Positions 7,317 through 18,706 of a DNA stretch of 64,000 bases are shown here, in pieces (position 1 is the stretch's first letter; each line of letters begins with the position of its first letter). The translations under genes were made by a program, and so were the position numbers. The DNA lies in NCBI RefSeq assembly GCF_021699055.1, contig NZ_SSXC01000011.1, forward strand, positions 1-64,000, read 5' to 3'. The notes under the pieces are model-generated. The model did not search any database and had not been told where the DNA came from. It saw nothing but the letters and a program-made list of their open reading frames with translations. This DNA comes from Blastococcus sp. MG754426. GTDB taxonomy: Bacteria > Actinomycetota > Actinomycetes > Mycobacteriales > Geodermatophilaceae.

Positions 7317-8234
7317 GTGGCGGCGGCGGCGGTGGTGCTGCCGGAGTTCTCGCTCATCGTCCTGGGCGTGGTGCTGCGCCGCTGGGCCTGGCGGGCGCCG
7401 GGCTTCTGGGTCGACCTCGAGCGCCTCGTCTACTTCGTGCTGTTCCCCGCCCTCCTCGTGCGGACCACGCTGGCGGCCGACCTCGCCGCGGGCGGCACCG
7501 GCAGCGCCCTGCTGGCGGCTCTCGGGGCTCTCGCCGCCGGCGCGCTGGTGGGCGCGCTCGTGCGCTGGTTCCCCGGCGTCGACCGGGTGACCGCCGCCTC
7601 GGGCTGGCAGACGGCGTTCCGCTTCAACACCTTCCTCGCCCTGGCCCTGGTCGACGACCGCGGTCCGGCCGCGCTCGCGCTCATGGGGGTGCTGCTGGGC
7701 GTCACGGTGCCCGCGGTCAACGTGCTCGCGGTGGTGGCCCTCGCCAACGGCACCGCCACGACGAGCGGTCGCGGGGCGGTGCTCGGCGCGCTCGGTGCCG
7801 TGGTCCGCAACCCGCTCATCGTCGCGACCGTCGTGGGCCTGCTCGGCAACGTCGCGGGCCTCGCGCTGCCGGACCCGGTCGACGCCACGCTCGGCCGGAT
7901 CGCGGCCGCGGCGGTGCCGCTGGGGCTGCTGACCGTCGGTGCGGCGCTCCGCCTGCGGGGGATGGACCGGAGCGGCTGGCTGCTCTCCGGCTTCCTGGCG
8001 GCGGTCAAGCTGCTCGTGGTGCCGGCGACCGCCCTGGCCCTGGTGGTGCTCCTCGGGGTGGAGGGCGACCAGCGGGCGGTGGTGCTGGCGTTCGCGGTGG
8101 TCCCCCCGGCCACCGCGTCCTACGTCCTGGCGGCGCGGATGGGCGGCAACGGCGGCTTCGTGTCCGCGCACATCTCGGTGGCGACCACCGCGGCGCTGGT
8201 CACCGTGCCGCTCTGGCTGCTGCTCACCGGGTGA
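7317..8234 (+). CDS. AEC family (auxin efflux carrier-like) transporter
   Basis: The 305-residue protein is highly hydrophobic with about ten membrane segments in two five-helix halves, typical of the AEC/MleP carrier family. It has the conserved NPLIVATVVGLL-type segment near residue 165 and a second-half motif AAVKLLVVPATAL near 225. Members export or exchange organic acids such as malate; the substrate is not predictable here. The GTG start has no ribosome-binding site and lies six bases after a -10-like box, consistent with leaderless translation. Its last 11 bases overlap the end of the convergent RsbU_N-like gene. Confidence 0.8.
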   Translation: MAAAAVVLPEFSLIVLGVVLRRWAWRAPGFWVDLERLVYFVLFPALLVRTTLAADLAAGGTGSALLAALGALAAGALVGALVRWFPGVDRVTAASGWQTAFRFNTFLALALVDDRGPAALALMGVLLGVTVPAVNVLAVVALANGTATTSGRGAVLGALGAVVRNPLIVATVVGLLGNVAGLALPDPVDATLGRIAAAAVPLGLLTVGAALRLRGMDRSGWLLSGFLAAVKLLVVPATALALVVLLGVEGDQRAVVLAFAVVPPATASYVLAARMGGNGGFVSAHISVATTAALVTVPLWLLLTG

Positions 8235-8547
8235 CCGGGGGCGGTCCCGACCGCGGTCCCCGCCCGCCCGGTGAGCGGCGCTGCGACATGTCGTAGCTGG
8301 CGACGACCTCGAGCAGGAAGTCCGACGCGGCCTCGGCGACCGCCGGCACCTCGTCGGGGGAGGTGGTCCGCAGCACCTCGACGAGGACGTCGTGGTGGAC
8401 GCGGACCACCTCGAGCAGGCTGATGCCCCCGGCCAGCGCCTTGCGCCCCAGCTCGTACCCGGCGTGCAGCGATGACTCCTGCCGGTGGCCGAGGTGGCGC
8501 AGCAGGGCAGCGCGGTGGTCCCGGCGCAGGTCCTCGACGGGCGTCAC
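8224..8547 (-). CDS. Stand-alone RsbU N-terminal domain protein
   Basis: The 107-residue product matches the small helical domain found at the N-terminus of the phosphatase RsbU, where it binds the switch kinase RsbT. Visible features are the GRKALAGGISLLEVVRVHHD segment and the downstream helix with FLLEVVASYDM. No PP2C phosphatase domain follows, so the protein could act only as a docking or sequestering partner. It is the last gene of the stressosome-type operon; its GTG overlaps the rsbS stop by four bases. The function as an RsbT-module binding protein is inference from the family and the operon. Confidence 0.68.
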   Translation of the reverse strand: MTPVEDLRRDHRAALLRHLGHRQESSLHAGYELGRKALAGGISLLEVVRVHHDVLVEVLRTTSPDEVPAVAEAASDFLLEVVASYDMSQRRSPGGRGPRSGPPPVTR

Positions 8548-8933
8548 CGGTGGGGCCCCGCCGTCGGCAGGGTGGCGCCCGCGAGGTGCTCCAGCCCCTC
8601 CTCGAGGTCGAGCGCCGTCACCAGGGAACCGGTGTCCATGCCGAGCCGGACGATCACGAACGCGACCTCGGGCTGGATGCCGACGACCACCGTCTGCGCG
8701 CCCCGCAGCCGCGCCATCTCCGCGATGTCCCGCAGCACCCGCGTGGCGAAGGAGTCGAGGACGTCCAGCGCCGCGAGGTCGATGATCACCCCGCGGGCGC
8801 GGTCGCGTCCGATGCGGTCGACGAGGTCCTCGCGGAAGCGCTCGAGCTGGGAGTCGTCCAGCGCGGTGTGGATCGAGGCGATCAGCGTCGGGCCCTGCTT
8901 GAGGATGGAGAACAGCCGTGGCCCGGAGCTCAT
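8544..8933 (-). CDS. rsbS: STAS domain antagonist, RsbS-like
   Basis: The 129-residue single STAS domain corresponds to RsbS, the small scaffold of the stressosome that binds RsbT until phosphorylated. The key segment IIDLAALDVLDSFATRVL (about residues 50-67) keeps the DSF triplet, in which Ser61 corresponds to the RsbT-phosphorylated serine of Bacillus subtilis RsbS (Ser59). The ATG at 8933 overlaps the rsbR stop (ATGA), giving tight stoichiometric coupling. The C-terminus is a little longer than usual. It acts in the cytoplasm with RsbR in large complexes. Confidence 0.82.
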   Translation of the reverse strand: MSSGPRLFSILKQGPTLIASIHTALDDSQLERFREDLVDRIGRDRARGVIIDLAALDVLDSFATRVLRDIAEMARLRGAQTVVVGIQPEVAFVIVRLGMDTGSLVTALDLEEGLEHLAGATLPTAGPHR

Positions 8934-9832
8934 GGCCCCATCGCCCCGTCGGGGTGCGCCGACGCGTACCCGAGCATCCGCTCGGCCTCCTCCAGCCCCC
9001 CTTGCAGGTCCCCGACGGTGTCCATCTTGCTCAGGTCGACGCCGATGGTCACCAGGGTCCGGGCGATGTCCGGTGACAACCCGGTGATGATCACGTTGGC
9101 GCCCATGAGGCGGGAGGCGTCGACGGTCTGCACGAGGTGGTTGGCCACCGTCTGGTCGATCGCGGGGACACCGGTGATGTCGATGACGACGACCTTGGCC
9201 CGGTGCGTGCGGATGCCGTTGAGGAGCTGCACCGTGAGCTGCTTGGCGCGCTCGCTGTCGAGCACCCCGATGATGGGCAGGATGAGCAGCCGCTCCCGGA
9301 CGGGCAGCACCGGCGTCGACAGCTCGAGGATCGCGTCCTGCTGCTGCCGGATGACCCGCTCGCGCTCGTCGACGAAGCTCACCGCCACGGTGTTGGCGAT
9401 GCGGTTGGCGGCCGGCTCGTAGGCGTCCAGCACGCGGTTGAGCAGGGCGAAGTCGCGCTGGTACTTCTCGAACAGCGAGCGCGCCAGGACGTCCCTCAGG
9501 AGCAGGACGATGCCCACGACCTCGTGCGTCTCCACGCCCCTCGGGATGATGCGCTCCGAGAGGTCGCGCGCGTAGTGCTGCAGCGCCTCCACGCTGCCGG
9601 TCTCGAGCACCTCGACGTAGTTGTCGTAGACCGACGTGGTCTCCGCCGCGACCTCCTGGCTGGTCATGGCCTGGAGCAGGTGCGCGTCGCCGATGCGGGT
9701 GGTCCACTCCTGGCGCAGCCGGGTGCGGTGCTCGCGGAGGTGCGCGACCAGTTCCGGGAGCAGCACGTCGGCGTCCCGGGACTTCTCCGCCGGTCCGCGC
9801 CCCGTCGCGCGGCCGTCCTCGTTGCTGGTCAT
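8930..9832 (-). CDS. rsbR: Stressosome scaffold and sensor protein, RsbR-like
   Basis: The 300-residue protein has an all-helical N-terminal sensor domain (residues ~25-160, globin-like or RsbR-N type), a linker helix, and a C-terminal STAS domain (about 175-285). The linker motif ELSTPV places Thr173 where B. subtilis RsbR has its phosphorylated Thr171. In the STAS loop GVPAIDQTVANH the position expected for the second phosphothreonine (Thr205) appears to be Gln227, with a Thr next to it. The N-terminal domain probably senses an unknown stress. It overlaps both neighbouring genes by four bases and works with RsbS to hold the RsbT module. Confidence 0.8.
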   Translation of the reverse strand: MTSNEDGRATGRGPAEKSRDADVLLPELVAHLREHRTRLRQEWTTRIGDAHLLQAMTSQEVAAETTSVYDNYVEVLETGSVEALQHYARDLSERIIPRGVETHEVVGIVLLLRDVLARSLFEKYQRDFALLNRVLDAYEPAANRIANTVAVSFVDERERVIRQQQDAILELSTPVLPVRERLLILPIIGVLDSERAKQLTVQLLNGIRTHRAKVVVIDITGVPAIDQTVANHLVQTVDASRLMGANVIITGLSPDIARTLVTIGVDLSKMDTVGDLQGGLEEAERMLGYASAHPDGAMGP

Positions 9833-10908
9833 CGCTCACCCCACCACTTCGTCATGGTCACGGTGGTGCCGCGACCGACCTCCGACACGACCGTGAACTC
9901 GTCCATCAGGCGCCGGGCGCCCGGCAGGCCCAGGCCCAGGCCCGCGTAGGTGCTGAAGCCGTCCTGCAGGGCCTGCGCCACGTCGGGGATGCCCGGGCCG
10001 ACGTCGCGCACGACGACGCGGATGCCCCGCCTCGGCTCCTCGAGCAGTTCGATCACCGCCTCCCCGGCCTCGGCGAACTTCACGACGTTGCGGGTCACCT
10101 CCGACACGGCGGTGGCGATCGCGGTGAGGTCGGTCGGCGGGAAGCCCAGGCGGGCGCCCGCCTCCCGGGCGGCCTGCCGGGCGGCCACGACGTCGGCGTC
10201 GGCCCGGACGGCGACGTGGATCTCGTCGTCCCGCGACCGGCCGCGGTCCACCAGCGGCTGGCTCAGCCCTGCGCAGAACCCGCACTCGAGCAGGTGCCGG
10301 GCGGCGTCGACCTCCCGCTGCCGGCGCCGGTCGCCGGAGGAGAGCGCGAGCAGCACCGGTCGGCAGCGGTCCGTCGGCGGGTCGGTCGCCTCCAGGGCCA
10401 GCAGGTACTCGACGCGCAGCCGCGCCCGGGTGCGGTTGAGCTGGGCCGCCACCGCACCGGCGGTGGACCCCAGCTCGGCGGCGAGCGAGCGGGTGTCCTG
10501 CCCCGCCACCTCGTGGGCCAGCAGGGTGGCGCGCTCACGCTCCCCCAGCCGGCGCAGCGCCGCGCTCACGGCGTCACGGTCCTCCCGGGCCAGCACGTCG
10601 GCGTCGGGCGCCTCGGAGGGGTGCAGGTCGACGACGCGGTGCTGGTTGCGCCGCTGCCGGTCCTGCTCCCGCCACAGCGAGGTGACGACGTTGCGCGCGG
10701 TCACGATGGCGTAGGGCTCCAGCATCCCCGGCTCGATCCGGCCGGCCGCGGCCAGCACGCGGGCCAGCGTCTCCTGCACCAGGTCGTCCACCGTGGCGGC
10801 GTCCCGGACCCGGGACGCGACGATCCGCCGGACGAGCGGCACGAGCGCCGTGATCTCCACCGATCCCGGTCGCTCCTCGGCGGAGCCAGCGGGCCCCGCG
10901 GCTGGCAT
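9829..10908 (-). CDS. ECF-type sigma factor fused to a zinc-binding linker and an RsbT-like ATPase
   Basis: This 359-residue protein combines modules normally encoded separately. Residues ~20-85 form a sigma-70 region 2 (DDLVQETLARV at 41-51). Residues ~108-165 form region 4 with a helix-turn-helix (SLAAELGSTAGAVAAQLNR). An HxxxCxxC motif (His205, Cys209, Cys212) matches the zinc-binding anti-sigma (ZAS) signature. Residues ~230-355 form a GHKL/HATPase domain with N-box SEVTRN (269-274), DVGPGI (302-307) and GLGLGL (323-328), as in RsbT-type switch kinases. It would let the stressosome act directly on promoter recognition. The ATG is leaderless, six bases after TAGCGT. Start, domains and operon position are clear; the regulatory model is inference. 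Confidence 0.8.
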   Translation of the reverse strand: MPAAGPAGSAEERPGSVEITALVPLVRRIVASRVRDAATVDDLVQETLARVLAAAGRIEPGMLEPYAIVTARNVVTSLWREQDRQRRNQHRVVDLHPSEAPDADVLAREDRDAVSAALRRLGERERATLLAHEVAGQDTRSLAAELGSTAGAVAAQLNRTRARLRVEYLLALEATDPPTDRCRPVLLALSSGDRRRQREVDAARHLLECGFCAGLSQPLVDRGRSRDDEIHVAVRADADVVAARQAAREAGARLGFPPTDLTAIATAVSEVTRNVVKFAEAGEAVIELLEEPRRGIRVVVRDVGPGIPDVAQALQDGFSTYAGLGLGLPGARRLMDEFTVVSEVGRGTTVTMTKWWGER

Positions 10909-10914
10909 GGCCGG

Positions 10915-10920
10915 ACGCTA
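10915..10920 (-). promoter_or_regulatory. -10 element of a leaderless promoter (TAGCGT)
   Basis: Read on the minus strand, TAGCGT is followed by CCGGCC and then the ATG of the sigma/RsbT fusion gene at 10908. It overlaps the stop codon of the upstream 85-codon gene, so the stressosome genes may have a promoter of their own inside the operon. Confidence 0.4.
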
Positions 10921-11175
10921 CCGCCGGCGGGCGGGCACCGCCTCCCCTCGCGCGCGCCCGCCCCCGGACGGGTCCGCGAGCAGCCGCTCCCCGAGGGACC
11001 GCCGCCGCCCGGCGCGCTCGCGCAGCAGGGAGGCCAGCACGGGGCTGGTCGTGCGGTCGGCGCGGCGTTCGAGGAGCTCCGCGGTCGCCAGCTGCCCGGC
11101 CGCCTGCCGGGTCCGGGCGCACCGGAGGAGCTCCTCCCGGCGGTGGGGGATCCCGTCCCTCGGATCCGTGGTCAT
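10918..11175 (-). CDS. Small basic hypothetical protein
   Basis: An 85-residue protein rich in Arg, Ala and Leu, with a helical core (REELLRCARTRQAAGQLATA) and a charged tail. The ATG at 11175 is chosen because GAGGTGG lies about four bases upstream; an ATG at 11193 is an alternative. It precedes the sigma/RsbT fusion gene by nine bases on the same strand and diverges from the response regulator. No family is recognised. The context suggests a role in the same stress regulon, but it could be an unrelated small gene. Confidence 0.5.
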   Translation of the reverse strand: MTTDPRDGIPHRREELLRCARTRQAAGQLATAELLERRADRTTSPVLASLLRERAGRRRSLGERLLADPSGGGRARGEAVPARRR

Positions 11176-11405
11176 GGCCCACCTCGCATCCATGTCTGCC
11201 CCGTGCGCAGGTGAGGACGCGGCGACGGGGACGGCATGACGCGGGGTGGGGCGGCCCGTCCCGAGCACCGCGCCCCGCCCCCGGGGACGGGGGGCGCACG
11301 GTCGCTTCGTGCGGCCGCGTCATGCACCGGGTCTCACCGCGTGTCAGTCGTGGCCGACCTCCCGCGCAGGGCGGGGGACCGGGCCGCGCGGAGGGCGGGG
11401 GAGCG

Positions 11406-11831
11406 GTGACCGAGATCCGGGTCGTGGTGGTGGACGACCACCCCTTCGTGCGGGACGCGCTCACCGACCTGCTGCAGGCAGCCGGTGGCATCTCCGTCGT
11501 GGGGCAGTGCGCGGACGGGAGCGAGGTCGCCGATGCCGTCCGGCAGCTGCACCCCGACGTGCTGCTGCTGGACCTGCAGATGCCGGTCGTGGACGGCCTG
11601 ACCGCGGCAAGCGTGGTCCGCACCTCGCACCCGGAGGTGCGCATCGTGTTCCTCACCGGGGGCCTCAGCTCGGCCAGCGTGCGGCGGGCGCGGGCGATCG
11701 ACGCGGCCGGCTACCTGCTCAAGGACGACGACCCGGCCGACCTCCCCGGCCACGTCCGGGCGGTCGCCGCCGGCGGCGCGGCGTGGCACCCCCGCGCCGC
11801 CGCTCTCCTCCACGACGCGGGACGCGCATGA
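11406..11831 (+). CDS. Single-domain response regulator (receiver only)
   Basis: The 141-residue protein is a CheY-like receiver without an output domain. It shows the acidic pair VVDDHP near residue 10, the phospho-acceptor Asp in LLLDLQMPVVDG (about 56-67), the conserved Thr in VFLTGG and the Lys in YLLKDDDPADL. These are the receiver signatures of NarL/LuxR-type regulators, but the protein ends where the helix-turn-helix would begin. The GTG at 11406 is chosen from the position of the receiver core; upstream sequence has no coding character. It sits next to the stressosome operon and just outside the left end of the mobile element. The truncation is probably ancestral, because the attachment site lies 50 bases further on. 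Confidence 0.78.
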   Translation: MTEIRVVVVDDHPFVRDALTDLLQAAGGISVVGQCADGSEVADAVRQLHPDVLLLDLQMPVVDGLTAASVVRTSHPEVRIVFLTGGLSSASVRRARAIDAAGYLLKDDDPADLPGHVRAVAAGGAAWHPRAAALLHDAGRA

Positions 11832-12716: not shown

Positions 12717-13577
12717 GTGCGTTCCGGAAGCAGCGAAGAGGGCCTTGTCGACGACCTGGTGACAAGCCTGCTCGAGAAGGACTACCTCGAAGTGCATGGG
12801 GTGCTTCAGTCCGTCGGAGCGGAACGGCTGCCCGCAGGGTGGCGGGACTTCAGCCCCGTGTCGAAGCGAAGGACGCTACGAAAAATCGTCGGCGGGCTCC
12901 CCGGCGAGCAGGTCGACGAACTCGCGCGCGACTACATCGATGGCAACAATGCCGATGTTCGGTTGGCTCCCGCGCCTTCCACAGGGCGGCACGCCCCTGC
13001 ATGGCGCCCTCCCTACGCCGCGCCGGCAGACCCTGCGGAGAAGTACGGCCTTGAGAAGACCACGGCGACGAATAGTGTCGACGGCGGCACGGTCCAGTCC
13101 ACGCAGGTCGGCCCCGACGAGATCGAGTCGGCTGAGTCCATTTTCGTCGTCCACGGCCGCGACACGAAGATCGAGAGCCAGACGCTCTTGCTCGTCGAGC
13201 GGACCACCGGCCGGCCTGCGATCGTGCTGCACGAACAAGTCACTGGCGGCCGGACCGTGATCGAGCAGATCGAGCGGCACGGGTCCTCAGCCGGATACGC
13301 CATCATCCTGCTGACCGGCGACGACGAGGGCGGCCTCCGCGGGGGCGAGATGAAGCCTCGCGCCCGACAGAACGTCGTCCTCGAGCTCGGCTACTTCTGG
13401 GGTGTGCTCGGACGCAATCGCGTCGCCGTGCTCGTTGAGGAGGGGGTCGAATTGCCCTCCGACGCGGGTGGCATCCACTACATCGACATCGACTCCGGGG
13501 GCGGCTGGAAGGCCAAGCTGCTCCGCGAACTCGACCACGCGGGCTTCGAGATCGACTGGAACAAACTGCGCCCGTAA
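12717..13577 (+). CDS. TIR-like nucleotide-binding domain protein
   Basis: The 286-residue protein ends in a TIR-like domain of the CAP12/PycTIR-related family (Pfam TIR-like, PF10137). The first strand is IFVVHGRD (142-149), followed by a helix, IVLHEQ, the IILLTGDDEGG segment, and the RQNVVLELGYF helix, where Glu223 is the likely NADase residue. Related effectors degrade NAD+ on sensing a nucleotide signal or partner. Residues 1-75 form a separate small helical domain, then a ~60-residue linker. No cyclase (CD-NTase or Pycsar) is encoded nearby, so the trigger is unknown. It opens the cargo region and is transcribed with the following genes on the plus strand. Confidence 0.78.
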   Translation: MRSGSSEEGLVDDLVTSLLEKDYLEVHGVLQSVGAERLPAGWRDFSPVSKRRTLRKIVGGLPGEQVDELARDYIDGNNADVRLAPAPSTGRHAPAWRPPYAAPADPAEKYGLEKTTATNSVDGGTVQSTQVGPDEIESAESIFVVHGRDTKIESQTLLLVERTTGRPAIVLHEQVTGGRTVIEQIERHGSSAGYAIILLTGDDEGGLRGGEMKPRARQNVVLELGYFWGVLGRNRVAVLVEEGVELPSDAGGIHYIDIDSGGGWKAKLLRELDHAGFEIDWNKLRP

Positions 13578-14410: not shown

Positions 14411-14473
14411 GCCCCTCAAGACTTCGCCGTGTCCTGTCGTCGTCAGGTACGGCAGACGGGTGTGATGGGCGGC

Positions 14474-15577
14474 ATGAGCGACGACGCCATTTTTCTCGCG
14501 GTCGGCGGACAGCTGACGGCACTCCGCAAAGCGGACTACAGCAGCGAGGACGTGCTCCAGCAGGTGCTTGCGCAGTTCCCGGAGCTGGTCGCCGGTGTCG
14601 GTACAGCGGGGGAGAGCGCGAAACTGCTGCTCGTCCGGCGCGAGATGCCGGTGGCAGCCGCGGATAGCGTCGGGCTGTCCCTTGACCACCTGTTCCTCGA
14701 CCAGTCCGGCGTGCCCGTGCTCGTGGAGGTCAAGCGGGCGTCGGACACTCGGGCGCGGCGGGAGGTCGTCGCCCAGATGCTCGACTACGCGGCCAACGGA
14801 CTGGCCGCCTGGCAGAACGACCTGCGGGATGCCGTCGCGCAGACGGCCGGTGGCACGGACCCGGGCACGTTCCTCCAGGAACAGCTGGGTGTGGAGGACG
14901 TCGAGGCGTTCTGGACGACGGTCGAGGACAACCTGCGGGTCGGCAAGATCCGGCTCATTTTCCTGGCCGACCGGCTGGCGCCCGGCCTGGTGCGCATCAT
15001 CGAGTTCCTGAACGAGCAGATGCGCGACGTGGAAGTGCTGGGCATCGAGATGCCGCAGTACACGGCACCGGAGGGGCAGGTCGTTTACGTGCCGCAGGTC
15101 CGCGGTCGTACGGCGGCAGCGGTGGAGGCCAAGCAGCGCCGAAGCAAGCGGGCGCCGTGGACGGAACAGACGCTGCTCGACGCCGGCGCGGAGGCGCGTT
15201 CGGAAGCGGAGATGGCGCTCGTCCGGCGGCTCATCGACGACGTCAAGACGCGCGGAGGCCGGTTTTCCTGGGGGATCGGGAGCACCGCCGGGGTGACCGG
15301 CTGGTACCCGGTCGACGGCAAGGACACCCCGGTGTGGAACGTCAACGTTGGCGACGCGACGACGGCCGGCTGGCTCTACTACATCCTTCCCGAGTACTCG
15401 ACGAGGCATCCGGAGCGTGTCGAGGCGTACGCGGACGCTGTCGCCCAAATTCCCGAACTGGCCGCCAAGGTGGGGCACGTGCGGGCGCGGGGCTGGAGCG
15501 GCTGGCCGTCCCTGCCGCTCGTACGTGCAGCTGAGATGGAGCAGACGATGGAGCCGATCGTCCTGGCCACCCATTGA
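14474..15577 (+). CDS. PD-(D/E)XK nuclease-like protein
   Basis: The 367-residue protein contains a restriction-endonuclease-like core near its N-terminus: an acidic FLDQSG strand and then VLVEVKRASD (Asp, Glu and Lys of the D...ExK triad, about residues 78-98), followed by a helix with VVAQMLDYAANG. This order resembles NucS/DUF91 and similar nucleases that target DNA ends or modified DNA. The C-terminal ~130 residues form a second domain with aromatic WYPVDGKD and WLYYILPEYS segments. The start could also be the ATG at 14465; neither has a strong ribosome-binding site. It stands 78 bases before the type III Res gene and may act with it. Confidence 0.6.
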   Translation: MSDDAIFLAVGGQLTALRKADYSSEDVLQQVLAQFPELVAGVGTAGESAKLLLVRREMPVAAADSVGLSLDHLFLDQSGVPVLVEVKRASDTRARREVVAQMLDYAANGLAAWQNDLRDAVAQTAGGTDPGTFLQEQLGVEDVEAFWTTVEDNLRVGKIRLIFLADRLAPGLVRIIEFLNEQMRDVEVLGIEMPQYTAPEGQVVYVPQVRGRTAAAVEAKQRRSKRAPWTEQTLLDAGAEARSEAEMALVRRLIDDVKTRGGRFSWGIGSTAGVTGWYPVDGKDTPVWNVNVGDATTAGWLYYILPEYSTRHPERVEAYADAVAQIPELAAKVGHVRARGWSGWPSLPLVRAAEMEQTMEPIVLATH

Positions 15578-15655: not shown

Positions 15656-18600
15656 GTGACGGAGACACTCGCCGCGAGCCCGATCCTCAACGGTCCGTAC
15701 GACCCGCCGTCGCGGCATTACGAGATGGGACGGCAGGGTCGGACGAACACGGTCAAGGAGGGACGCCGTCCGAGCGAGTCGTTCATCCCCATCCCCGCGG
15801 CCCGCAAGGGCCAGCAGAACCAGGCCGGTTTCGTCGAAGAAACGATCGACTACGACCTCACCGGCGAGCGCCGGGAGCGCAACAGTCTGGTCAACAGTCT
15901 CCGCCGAGACGTCGAGATCTGGCGGCACCGCGGCTACGAGCGGGTGACGCCGACCAGCCGCAAGCTGCTGGAGCACTGGGCCGACCCGACCCGCGAGAAC
16001 CGCGTCCTGTTCGCCCAACGGGAGGCCGCCGAGACCGCGATCTTCCTCGCCGAGGTGGCCGGCCGACACGGGTACAAAGACTGGCGCCGCCAGCTCGACG
16101 AGGCCAACGCCGACCACAACTCCGGGCTGCCGCGGGTGGCCCTCAAGATGGCGACCGGCACCGGCAAGACGGTCGTCATGGCGATGCTGATCGCCTGGCA
16201 GACGGCCAACAAGGTGCTGCAGCCGCGGGGCACCCGCTTCGCTAAGCGCTTCCTGATCGTGGCGCCCGGTATCACCATCCGAGACCGGCTCCAGGTGCTG
16301 CAGCCCGGGCACCCCGGCAACTACTACGACGAGCGCGACCTGCTGCCGTCGGACCTGCGCGCAGCCGTGCAGCAGGCCCAGATTGTGATCACGAACTACC
16401 ACTCCTTCCTGCTGCGCGACGCGAAGGAGATCAAGGGCGTCGCCGCCAACACGAAGAAGATCCTGCTCGCGGGAAAGACCGACGACCCGTTCACAGAGAC
16501 GCCGGACGCCATGGTCGCCCGAGTGCTGCGTGACTTCGCCGGCCGCAACGAGCAGATCGTGGTCTTCAACGACGAGGCGCACCACTGCTACCAGGACAAG
16601 CCGATCCCCGCCGTCAAGGGTGCTCCCGCATCCCAGACCAAGGATGACCTGGAGACGGCGCGGGTCTGGTTCAAGGGTCTCCAGGCCATCCAGCGCAAGG
16701 TCGGCATCAAGACTATCTTCGACCTGTCGGCGACGCCCTTCTACCTCGGTGGCTCCGGCTACTCAGAGGGCTACATCTTCCCGTGGGTGGTCAGCGACTT
16801 CTCGCTGATGGACGCCATCGAGTCGGGCATCGTGAAGATCCCGCGTACCCCGGTGGACGACGACGCGACCGGTGACTTGGTCACCTACCTGCGGCTCTGG
16901 GACTACGTGGGCACGCACCTTCCGAAGAAGAAGCTGTCCTCCACCGAGGCGCTGCACGGGTGGGTGCCGCCGGCCGAGCTCGAGGGCGCGCTGAAGAGCC
17001 TCTACCGCAGCTACACGAGGGCCTTCGAGCACTGGGAGCGGACGCTCGCTCAACACGGCGAGCCCCCGCCCGTCTTCATCGTCGTCTGCCCCAACACAGT
17101 CGTCTCCAAGCTGGTCTACGACTACATCGCCGGCACGGAGACCGACGGCGGCGTACTCGTTCCCGGGGAGCTCGCCCGATTCAGCAACGTCGAGGACGGC
17201 CGCTTCCTGGACCGGCCACGCACCATCCTCGTCGACTCCGCACAGCTGGAGTCGGGCGAGGCGATGAAGGCCGACTTTAAGCAGGCCGCGGCAGCCGAGA
17301 TCGAAGCGTTCAAGGCCGACTTCCGCCGCCGCAATCAGGGTGCGGACGCCGACTCGCTCACCGACGAGGACCTGCTCCGCGAGGTGATGAACACGGTCGG
17401 CAAGAAAGGCAAGCTCGGCGAGGGCATCCGCTGCGTGGTCAGCGTCGCCATGCTCACCGAGGGCTGGGACGCCAACACGGTCACCCACATCCTCGGCATC
17501 CGCGCCTTCGGCAGCCAGCTGCTCTGCGAGCAGGTGGTCGGGCGCGGGCTCCGCCGGCGGTCCTACGCGCTGGGCGAGGACGGCAGGTTTGAGCCCGAGT
17601 ACGCCAACGTCTACGGCATCCCGTTCGCGTTCATCCCTAGCGACAGGCCCGGGCCCGATCCCTTGCCGCGGCCGCCGGCGATCATGGTCGAGTCGCTGCC
17701 CGGCCGGGAACACCTGCGGATCGAGTTCCCCAAGCTCGACGGCTACCGGGTCGAGATTCCCGACGAGCAGCTCATGTTCGACCCTGCGACGGCGCAGCGG
17801 TTCCCCATCGGACCCAGCACGGTCCCGACCCGCACGGACGTCGAAGGCGTGGTCGGTGAGGGCGAGACGGTCACCGACGACGAGGCGCAGGGCCGGCGCC
17901 GGCAGGAGGTCGCCTACCGCCTGGCGGCCCGGCTCCTGCGAACTCACCTAACCGCGCTGGGGGAGGACCCGCGCCCCTGGCTGTTCCCCCAGCTGGTGAC
18001 GATCGCGCGGCAGTGGCTGGAGCAGTGCGTCGACATCGCCCCCGGCTACGCAATTGGGCATTTGCTCACCTCGATGGAGGGCCAGGCCGAGGCCGCGGAG
18101 GCCATCCACCGGGCAATCGCCGTCCAGGCCGGCAGCCGCCGGGAGCGGCTGCGCCCGATGATCCGGCGCTTCGACCCGGTCGGCTCGACGGCCGACATCG
18201 CCTTCCCGACGCGGAAGGCCGTGGTGGCGACGGAGAAGTCCGAGGTCAGCCACGTCACATTGGACGGAAAAGACGGCAACACCTGGGAGCAACTGCTGGC
18301 CGCCGAGTGCGAGCTGCACCGCGACGTCGTGGCGTACGTCAAGAACGACCACCTGGGGTTCGTGATCCCGTATGTGCACCAGGGCCGGACGCACTCCTAC
18401 GTCCCGGACTTCCTCGTCCGTCTCAAGCCGCGCGAGGACGACGTGGTGCGGACGCTGGTCGTCGAGGTCTCCGGCAGCCAGAAGAGCCCCGGGCCGACCA
18501 AAGCCAAGGCCGACACCGCCCGCGACCAGTGGTGCGTCGCGGTGAACAACCACGGCGGCTTCGGGCGGTGGGGCTACGTCGAGATCACCACCATGCTGGG

Positions 18601-18706
18601 CGTCCGGGAACGACTCTCCGAGGCCATCGACCTGCTGTACGCCGACGCGCCGATCGTCGGCGATCCCGATTTGCTCGACTACGACGAGGTCACACGTGGT
18701 GCGTAA
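15656..18706 (+). CDS. Type III restriction enzyme Res-like helicase-nuclease
   Basis: The 1016-residue protein is an SF2 helicase of the type III Res family. Walker A ATGTGKT lies at 166-172, the DEAH-type Walker B NDEAHH at 305-310, and SATPFY near 356; the second RecA-like domain has the QVVGRGLRR-type motif VI near 625-640. The C-terminal domain carries a nuclease-like pattern, YVPDFLVRL (about 914-922) and VVEVSG (about 935), comparable to the D...ExK endonuclease region of Res. It would translocate and cut DNA together with the Mod subunit. The gene overlaps the start of mod by 11 bases. Res precedes Mod here, the reverse of the common mod-res order. Confidence 0.85.
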   Translation: MTETLAASPILNGPYDPPSRHYEMGRQGRTNTVKEGRRPSESFIPIPAARKGQQNQAGFVEETIDYDLTGERRERNSLVNSLRRDVEIWRHRGYERVTPTSRKLLEHWADPTRENRVLFAQREAAETAIFLAEVAGRHGYKDWRRQLDEANADHNSGLPRVALKMATGTGKTVVMAMLIAWQTANKVLQPRGTRFAKRFLIVAPGITIRDRLQVLQPGHPGNYYDERDLLPSDLRAAVQQAQIVITNYHSFLLRDAKEIKGVAANTKKILLAGKTDDPFTETPDAMVARVLRDFAGRNEQIVVFNDEAHHCYQDKPIPAVKGAPASQTKDDLETARVWFKGLQAIQRKVGIKTIFDLSATPFYLGGSGYSEGYIFPWVVSDFSLMDAIESGIVKIPRTPVDDDATGDLVTYLRLWDYVGTHLPKKKLSSTEALHGWVPPAELEGALKSLYRSYTRAFEHWERTLAQHGEPPPVFIVVCPNTVVSKLVYDYIAGTETDGGVLVPGELARFSNVEDGRFLDRPRTILVDSAQLESGEAMKADFKQAAAAEIEAFKADFRRRNQGADADSLTDEDLLREVMNTVGKKGKLGEGIRCVVSVAMLTEGWDANTVTHILGIRAFGSQLLCEQVVGRGLRRRSYALGEDGRFEPEYANVYGIPFAFIPSDRPGPDPLPRPPAIMVESLPGREHLRIEFPKLDGYRVEIPDEQLMFDPATAQRFPIGPSTVPTRTDVEGVVGEGETVTDDEAQGRRRQEVAYRLAARLLRTHLTALGEDPRPWLFPQLVTIARQWLEQCVDIAPGYAIGHLLTSMEGQAEAAEAIHRAIAVQAGSRRERLRPMIRRFDPVGSTADIAFPTRKAVVATEKSEVSHVTLDGKDGNTWEQLLAAECELHRDVVAYVKNDHLGFVIPYVHQGRTHSYVPDFLVRLKPREDDVVRTLVVEVSGSQKSPGPTKAKADTARDQWCVAVNNHGGFGRWGYVEITTMLGVRERLSEAIDLLYADAPIVGDPDLLDYDEVTRGA

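Follow-up and report, generated by a model that had tools for sequence, protein, structure and literature searches.

We describe a stressosome operon of Blastococcus sp. MG754426 in which an RsbT-type kinase is joined, through a zinc-type linker, to an ECF sigma factor in a single polypeptide. The operon lies in the window, the whole stretch of 64,000 nucleotides that was analyzed, and reads fusion, rsbR, rsbS, RsbU_N, with the fusion gene first and neighboring genes overlapping by 4 bases. We consider it fairly probable that the kinase which this stressosome releases is at the same time the sigma factor, with RsbU_N as a second partner, and we infer that the complex would thereby be coupled directly to a sigma factor. 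An earlier note had placed sigma regions 2 and 4, an HxxxCxxC motif and an RsbT-like GHKL domain in one chain inside an rsbR/rsbS operon; Pfam and NCBIfam matches and an intact ORF bear out the chain, and two adjoining genes for STAS proteins (8930–9832 and 8544–8933) bear out its setting. The note was right about rsbR and rsbS and missed the gene for RsbU_N alone (8224–8547). The features of the locus are the following.

8224–8547, minus strand: stand-alone RsbU_N, 107 aa, overlapping rsbS by 4 bases
8544–8933, minus strand: rsbS-like STAS protein, 129 aa, with phospho-acceptor Ser (D-S-F), overlapping rsbR by 4 bases
8930–9832, minus strand: rsbR-like protein, RsbRD_N-like domain plus STAS, 300 aa, overlapping the fusion stop by 4 bases
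9829–10908, minus strand: fusion of ECF sigma factor, zinc-type linker and RsbT kinase, 359 aa
9844–10224, minus strand: RsbT-type GHKL kinase domain of the fusion, residues 229–355 (Pfam, alignment, tree, fold)
10273–10365, minus strand: zinc-type site C182-x22-H205-x3-C209-x2-C212, ZAS/zf-HC2-like (spacing, helical model)
10417–10575, minus strand: sigma region 4, residues 112–164 (Pfam, fold match)
10657–10851, minus strand: sigma region 2, residues 20–84 (Pfam, alignment, fold match)
10918–11268, minus strand: small helical ORF, given as its longest frame with a probable start inside; membership in the system unproven

Sigma factor, zinc-type module and kinase in one chain

The fusion ORF runs from an ATG start through 359 codons with no interruption. 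A frameshift or artefact can be dismissed as the origin, because 26 of 27 loci have the ORF unbroken. The sole broken copy (L025, genome G012) comes from the only other genome of the same genus with the system; two frame changes break the fusion there beside intact rsbR, rsbS and RsbU_N genes, through either decay or an assembly error. AlphaFold2 modeling of the fusion with 44 related sequences gave a mean pLDDT of 88.8 and a pTM of 0.48, indicating that the individual domains are well predicted and their mutual arrangement is not.

The N-terminal half has the make-up of an ECF sigma factor, i.e., regions 2 and 4 without region 3. Pfam placed Sigma70_r2 at residues 20–84 (45.2 bits, above the curated cut-off) and Sigma70_r4_2 at residues 112–164 (25.8 bits vs. 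a cut-off of 25.7), and the general NCBIfam sigma70-ECF model scored 72.6 bits (cut-off 42.9). In structure comparisons, region 2 matched an ECF sigma factor (Z about 11) and region 4 matched that of SigL (Z 11.3). Full fusions were aligned for 26 proteins from several actinobacterial families; in an alignment of 24 fusions, with 73% mean column identity, the region 2 residues D42, Q45, E46 and N73 are invariant, and both sigma regions as well as the ATPase domain score by Pfam in all 24. Pairwise dN/dS ranges from 0.03 to 0.26 in the sigma half and from 0.07 to 0.31 in the kinase part, and the sigma, zinc and kinase parts are, by such comparisons, all evidently under purifying selection. A degenerate sigma half among relatives, an outcome that the earlier note had named as refuting its reading, was thus sought and not found; the consistent scores for regions 2 and 4 and the low dN/dS argue that this half is not a remnant. 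It is conceivable that the sigma half is instead a decoy like PhyR, titrating an anti-sigma factor and not binding RNA polymerase. This would fit weak PhyR_sigma2 matches in 15 of the 24 fusions (best E 1.8e-4) and the replacement of some basic residues of region 4.2 (GAVAAQL vs. the usual GTVKSRL), but we judge it highly improbable given the margin by which the general ECF model exceeds its cut-off, the conservation of region 2.2 (DDLVQETL) and of the region 4 core, and the match of the N-terminal folds to ECF sigma factors from RNA polymerase complexes. Upstream regions were searched as well: two-box dyads in the 510 bases preceding 26 fusions were not clearly in excess of shuffled controls (9 vs. 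7–8), a subsequent pattern scan did not recover the best of them there, and neither ECF- nor SigB-like promoter patterns, nor an autoregulatory ECF motif, were found upstream of the fusions.

The sigma regions are followed by a module with the HxxxCxxC residues H205, C209 and C212 and an additional conserved cysteine, C182. Every one of the 37 relatives examined has the same C-x22-H-x3-C-x2-C spacing, which argues against a chance motif. AlphaFold2 predicts four short helices for the module (pLDDT about 96), so that both sequence and model place the C ... HxxxCxxC ligands of ZAS/zf-HC2 proteins within a helical domain. At the level of profiles, Pfam zf-HC2 gave no match to the zinc-type module of the fusions, hhalign against ZAS/zf-HC2 aligned only the HxxxCxxC core, and the best PDB profile match, the sigma-L anti-sigma factor RslA, was not significant (E 0.57). 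The C182/H205/C209/C212 site would be expected to bind zinc, and the module to clamp the sigma factor.

The C-terminal part scored 55.6 bits with Pfam HATPase_c_2 (residues 238–354, above the curated cut-off), and its closest folds are those of SpoIIAB (Z 18.1) and RsbW (Z 16.2). Equivalents of RsbT E45, N49, D78, G80 and G82 are kept in 25 of 25 fused relatives; with the N-box E/N, the D-x-G-x-G motif and the lid residues intact, the fused RsbT-type kinase is, by its residues, catalytically complete. Residues that contact RsbU in RsbT (PMC12143880) are likewise preserved, with R19 and R23 kept in 25/25 and D92 in 24/25. RsbT and RsbU of B. subtilis served as references, with positions that correspond to those given in that study; the fused kinase is 43% identical to this RsbT. 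It groups with RsbT in a tree built without an RsbW outgroup, and all fused RsbT domains fall on one side of a single branch with modest support (82/82). A SpoIIAB/RsbW-type anti-sigma identity was considered and is less likely, as both the operon and the similarity to RsbT favor the latter, although the profile libraries used contain no model specific to RsbT.

Stressosome partners and RsbU_N without a phosphatase

The two STAS proteins downstream match solved chains of the Listeria stressosome (E 3e-34 for the RsbR-like and E 4e-26 for the RsbS-like protein), and they have the organization of a stressosome core, namely an RsbR with an N-terminal sensor followed by STAS and an RsbS consisting of STAS alone with the acceptor serine. 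This serine is kept in 14/14, and among relatives the gene order is conserved with gaps that are 4-base overlaps or near zero. One of the RsbR phosphosites is another matter. At the site of Listeria T209 (T205 in B. subtilis), none of 16 fused operons has Ser or Thr; nine have Glu and the others Gln, Ala, Val, Gly or His, with Q227 in the window. This sets the fused operons apart from the canonical stressosome, represented by three mycobacterial-type operons examined, in which the position is Ser. In contrast to that site, the T241-equivalent Thr (T259 in the window) is kept in all 16. Phosphorylation of RsbR at T209 has been linked to signal dampening (PMC9237128), and the fused operons no longer have this phosphosite.

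Several neighboring genes were noted. The small ORF at 10918–11268 (minus strand) ends 9 bases before the fusion start; a number of Geodermatophilaceae (L021, L025, L032, L161–L163, L169) have a homologue ahead of the fusion gene, and other families do not. A gene for a response regulator receiver protein (11211–11831, plus strand) lies divergently just upstream of the operon. Also near the stressosome operon are possible defense genes, TIR-like (PDC-S35), PDC-S11-like and type III restriction-like helicase (12717–13577, 14429–15577 and 15656–18706, all plus strand).

The last gene of the operon encodes RsbU_N (Pfam 62.3 bits, cut-off 25.5) and no other domain. Its 107-aa product matches the solved N-terminal domain of RsbU weakly (E 4e-4) and stops where the RsbU linker would start, with neither linker nor PPM domain. 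Whole-genome searches found exactly one RsbU_N in 19 of 20 fusion genomes, always as a short frame about 1–2.5 kb away; in the remaining genome, G067, the contig breaks off within rsbR, before RsbU_N would be reached. The same search gave no RsbU_N in four congeners that lack the fusion. G140 and G418, in which RsbT is a separate protein, each have one RsbU_N, encoded in an 844-aa and a 980-aa frame, respectively; the frame of G140 includes a PPM phosphatase domain, and a second PPM gene adjoins rsbT there. No PPM gene was found in the fused operons of G000, G025, G106 and G269, with 19 PPM matches elsewhere in the G000 genome. The fusion system thus differs from a SigB-type output, in which RsbU_N is joined to a PPM phosphatase. 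Since the sole RsbU_N is short in 19 of the 20 genomes and the operon lacks a PPM gene, the fused RsbT has no recognizable RsbU phosphatase. The earlier note had suggested that the route dispenses with both a phosphatase and a partner-switch cascade. Its first half is well supported by these findings, and its second half is less secure, because the conserved stand-alone RsbU_N gives the kinase another partner after release, and some partner switching may persist.

What this second partner does is the subject of one alternative. The RsbU_N dimer could act as an anti-sigma-like captor, the fusion then shuttling between stressosome and RsbU_N with its sigma factor blocked or degraded. We find this unlikely on balance: the 107-aa protein has no anti-sigma motif, known binding of RsbT to RsbU_N is activating (PMC12143880), and the RsbU contact residue Tyr28 is replaced in the stand-alone RsbU_N, even if its location next to the fusion gene in 19 of the 20 genomes, its translational coupling to rsbS and the retention of RsbU-contact residues in RsbT would all suit a captor.

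Distribution and origin

The earlier note had also called for a survey across actinobacteria with operon context. Full fusions were found in several families with gene order kept, i.e., in Geodermatophilus, Modestobacter and others of the window's own family, and in Nocardioidaceae, Intrasporangiaceae (Humibacillus and Tetrasphaera) and further actinobacterial families. The sigma-zinc part is present in 32 of 115 genomes of the window's family, two of them in its own genus, and RsbT accompanies it at every locus of that family that was checked.

Twelve other actinobacterial proteins have the sigma-zinc half, with identical C-x22-H-x3-C-x2-C spacing, and no RsbT (L038, L031, L141, L142, L143, L173 and L175–L180). 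Eleven of these are complete and continue into a hydrophobic stretch and an external domain; the remaining protein is truncated where its contig stops. The external domain has a conserved "EGFW" core (EGFW...GESP motif) and no Pfam match, and AlphaFold2 suggests that it folds as a small beta barrel, for which OB-fold-like matches are weak. In the sigma-zinc architecture, RsbT therefore appears to sit where these relatives have a membrane sensor. Given the membrane segment and external domain that they carry on the same sigma-zinc half, the simplest interpretation is that RsbT took over from the membrane-sensor tail; which way the change ran is unproven. In a tree of the sigma-zinc part, RsbT-type and membrane-type proteins were clustered with two changes between types; a single change was found in 17% of bootstrap trees, and branches are long. 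This tree neither demonstrates that the fusion arose once nor rules it out.

Kinship with membrane-anchored proteins also bears on how the sigma factor might be freed. Cleavage between the zinc module and RsbT could release the sigma half, a route put forward for IutY and for ECF52-type sigma factors that have C-terminal extensions. Proteolytic release has been demonstrated for IutY and is expected for ECF48/52/53 (PMC8999054), the sigma-zinc half is common to the membrane-anchored relatives, and residues 223–230 form a short low-confidence linker in the AlphaFold2 model; however, the sequence of this linker differs among the aligned fusions and shows no conserved motif for cleavage, the operon contains no protease gene, and a hydrophobicity scan of the fusion found no membrane segment (best 19-residue mean 1.07). 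Release by proteolysis is, in our estimate, improbable.

Proposed mechanism

We favor release of the intact fusion from the stressosome, in steps modeled on the known biology of RsbT, RsbS and RsbU. At rest, the RsbT domain would dock on unphosphorylated RsbS (together with RsbR), so that the complex retains numerous copies of the ECF sigma factor out of reach of RNA polymerase, and the zinc-type module probably clamps the sigma regions. Upon stress, the RsbT domain would phosphorylate the conserved serine of RsbS, and the whole sigma-kinase would be released. The freed RsbT domain would then bind the small stand-alone RsbU_N dimer, which takes the place of the absent RsbU phosphatase, and this binding would more likely stabilize the active, unclamped sigma factor than block it. 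Within this scheme, the function of the zinc module and the choice between an activating and a restraining RsbU_N are least certain. Points against it are the low pTM of the model, the absence of an autoregulatory ECF motif upstream, a zinc module with neither a Pfam zf-HC2 match nor a significant PDB profile match, and the stand-alone RsbU_N, through which some partner switching may continue. Taken as a whole, the proposal of a one-step stressosome, in which the sigma-RsbT chain is caught and released directly, RsbU_N is the second partner, no RsbU-RsbV-RsbW cascade intervenes, the wiring is inverted and RsbT has replaced a membrane tail, is in our opinion about evenly balanced between right and wrong.

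Relation to known systems and significance

The operon resembles the canonical stressosomes of Bacillus, Listeria and mycobacteria in its RsbR and RsbS STAS proteins, the RsbS serine, a complete RsbT and an RsbU_N, all in one operon. It differs from the RsbRST-RsbU-RsbV-RsbW-SigB pathway in joining RsbT to an ECF sigma factor, in having RsbU_N on its own and in the lack of a PPM gene in the operon. Partner-switching parts are also merged in Rv1364c of M. tuberculosis, which has RsbU and RsbW domains in one chain and is among the fold matches of the fusion (structure 3ke6). The Rv1364c chain is not known to include a sigma factor, whereas in the fusion the sigma factor is part of the chain. By architecture, the fusion is also akin to the actinobacterial ECF48, ECF52 and ECF53 proteins (e.g., SCO4117), where an ECF sigma factor is followed by a zinc module in one chain, and the membrane-anchored sigma-zinc relatives share their plan of sigma factor, zinc finger and membrane helix. 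In these groups, self-inhibition via the ZAS-like extension is expected (PMC8999054), and reviews expect proteolytic release for the plan with zinc finger and membrane extension (PMC8999054, PMC5826349). Unlike them, the fusion has no membrane helix and ends in a soluble RsbT within an rsbR/rsbS operon. Other effectors that combine RsbT and RsbU_N with a stressosome are RsbU phosphatases, the RsbU_N-GGDEF protein of Moorella and RsbU_N-histidine kinases (PMC12143880); in contrast to these, the wiring here is inverted, with the effector on RsbT and not on RsbU_N.

Each part of the fusion belongs to a known family, and the combination is apparently undescribed in the literature searched. That search, which covered ECF sigma factors, RsbRST output modules and stressosomes of Geodermatophilaceae but did not extend to the main ECF classification or the 2005 RsbRST survey, returned no description of an ECF sigma-RsbT fusion, and it is possible that such fusions are listed without a name in the main ECF classification paper (10.1093/nar/gkaa1229).

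If the proposal is true, no shorter path leading from a stressosome to transcription would be known, and copy number in the complex, release of the kinase and output at promoters would be properties of one measurable chain. The number of RsbT molecules that leave a stressosome, an open question, could then be read directly as sigma activity, since kinase and sigma factor are a single chain. An RsbU_N with no phosphatase and an RsbR dampening site that is consistently lost in fused operons are specific consequences that can be tested. For the actinobacteria, the system points to modular exchange, in which one sigma-zinc core may be connected, depending on lineage, to a membrane sensor or to a cytoplasmic sensing hub.
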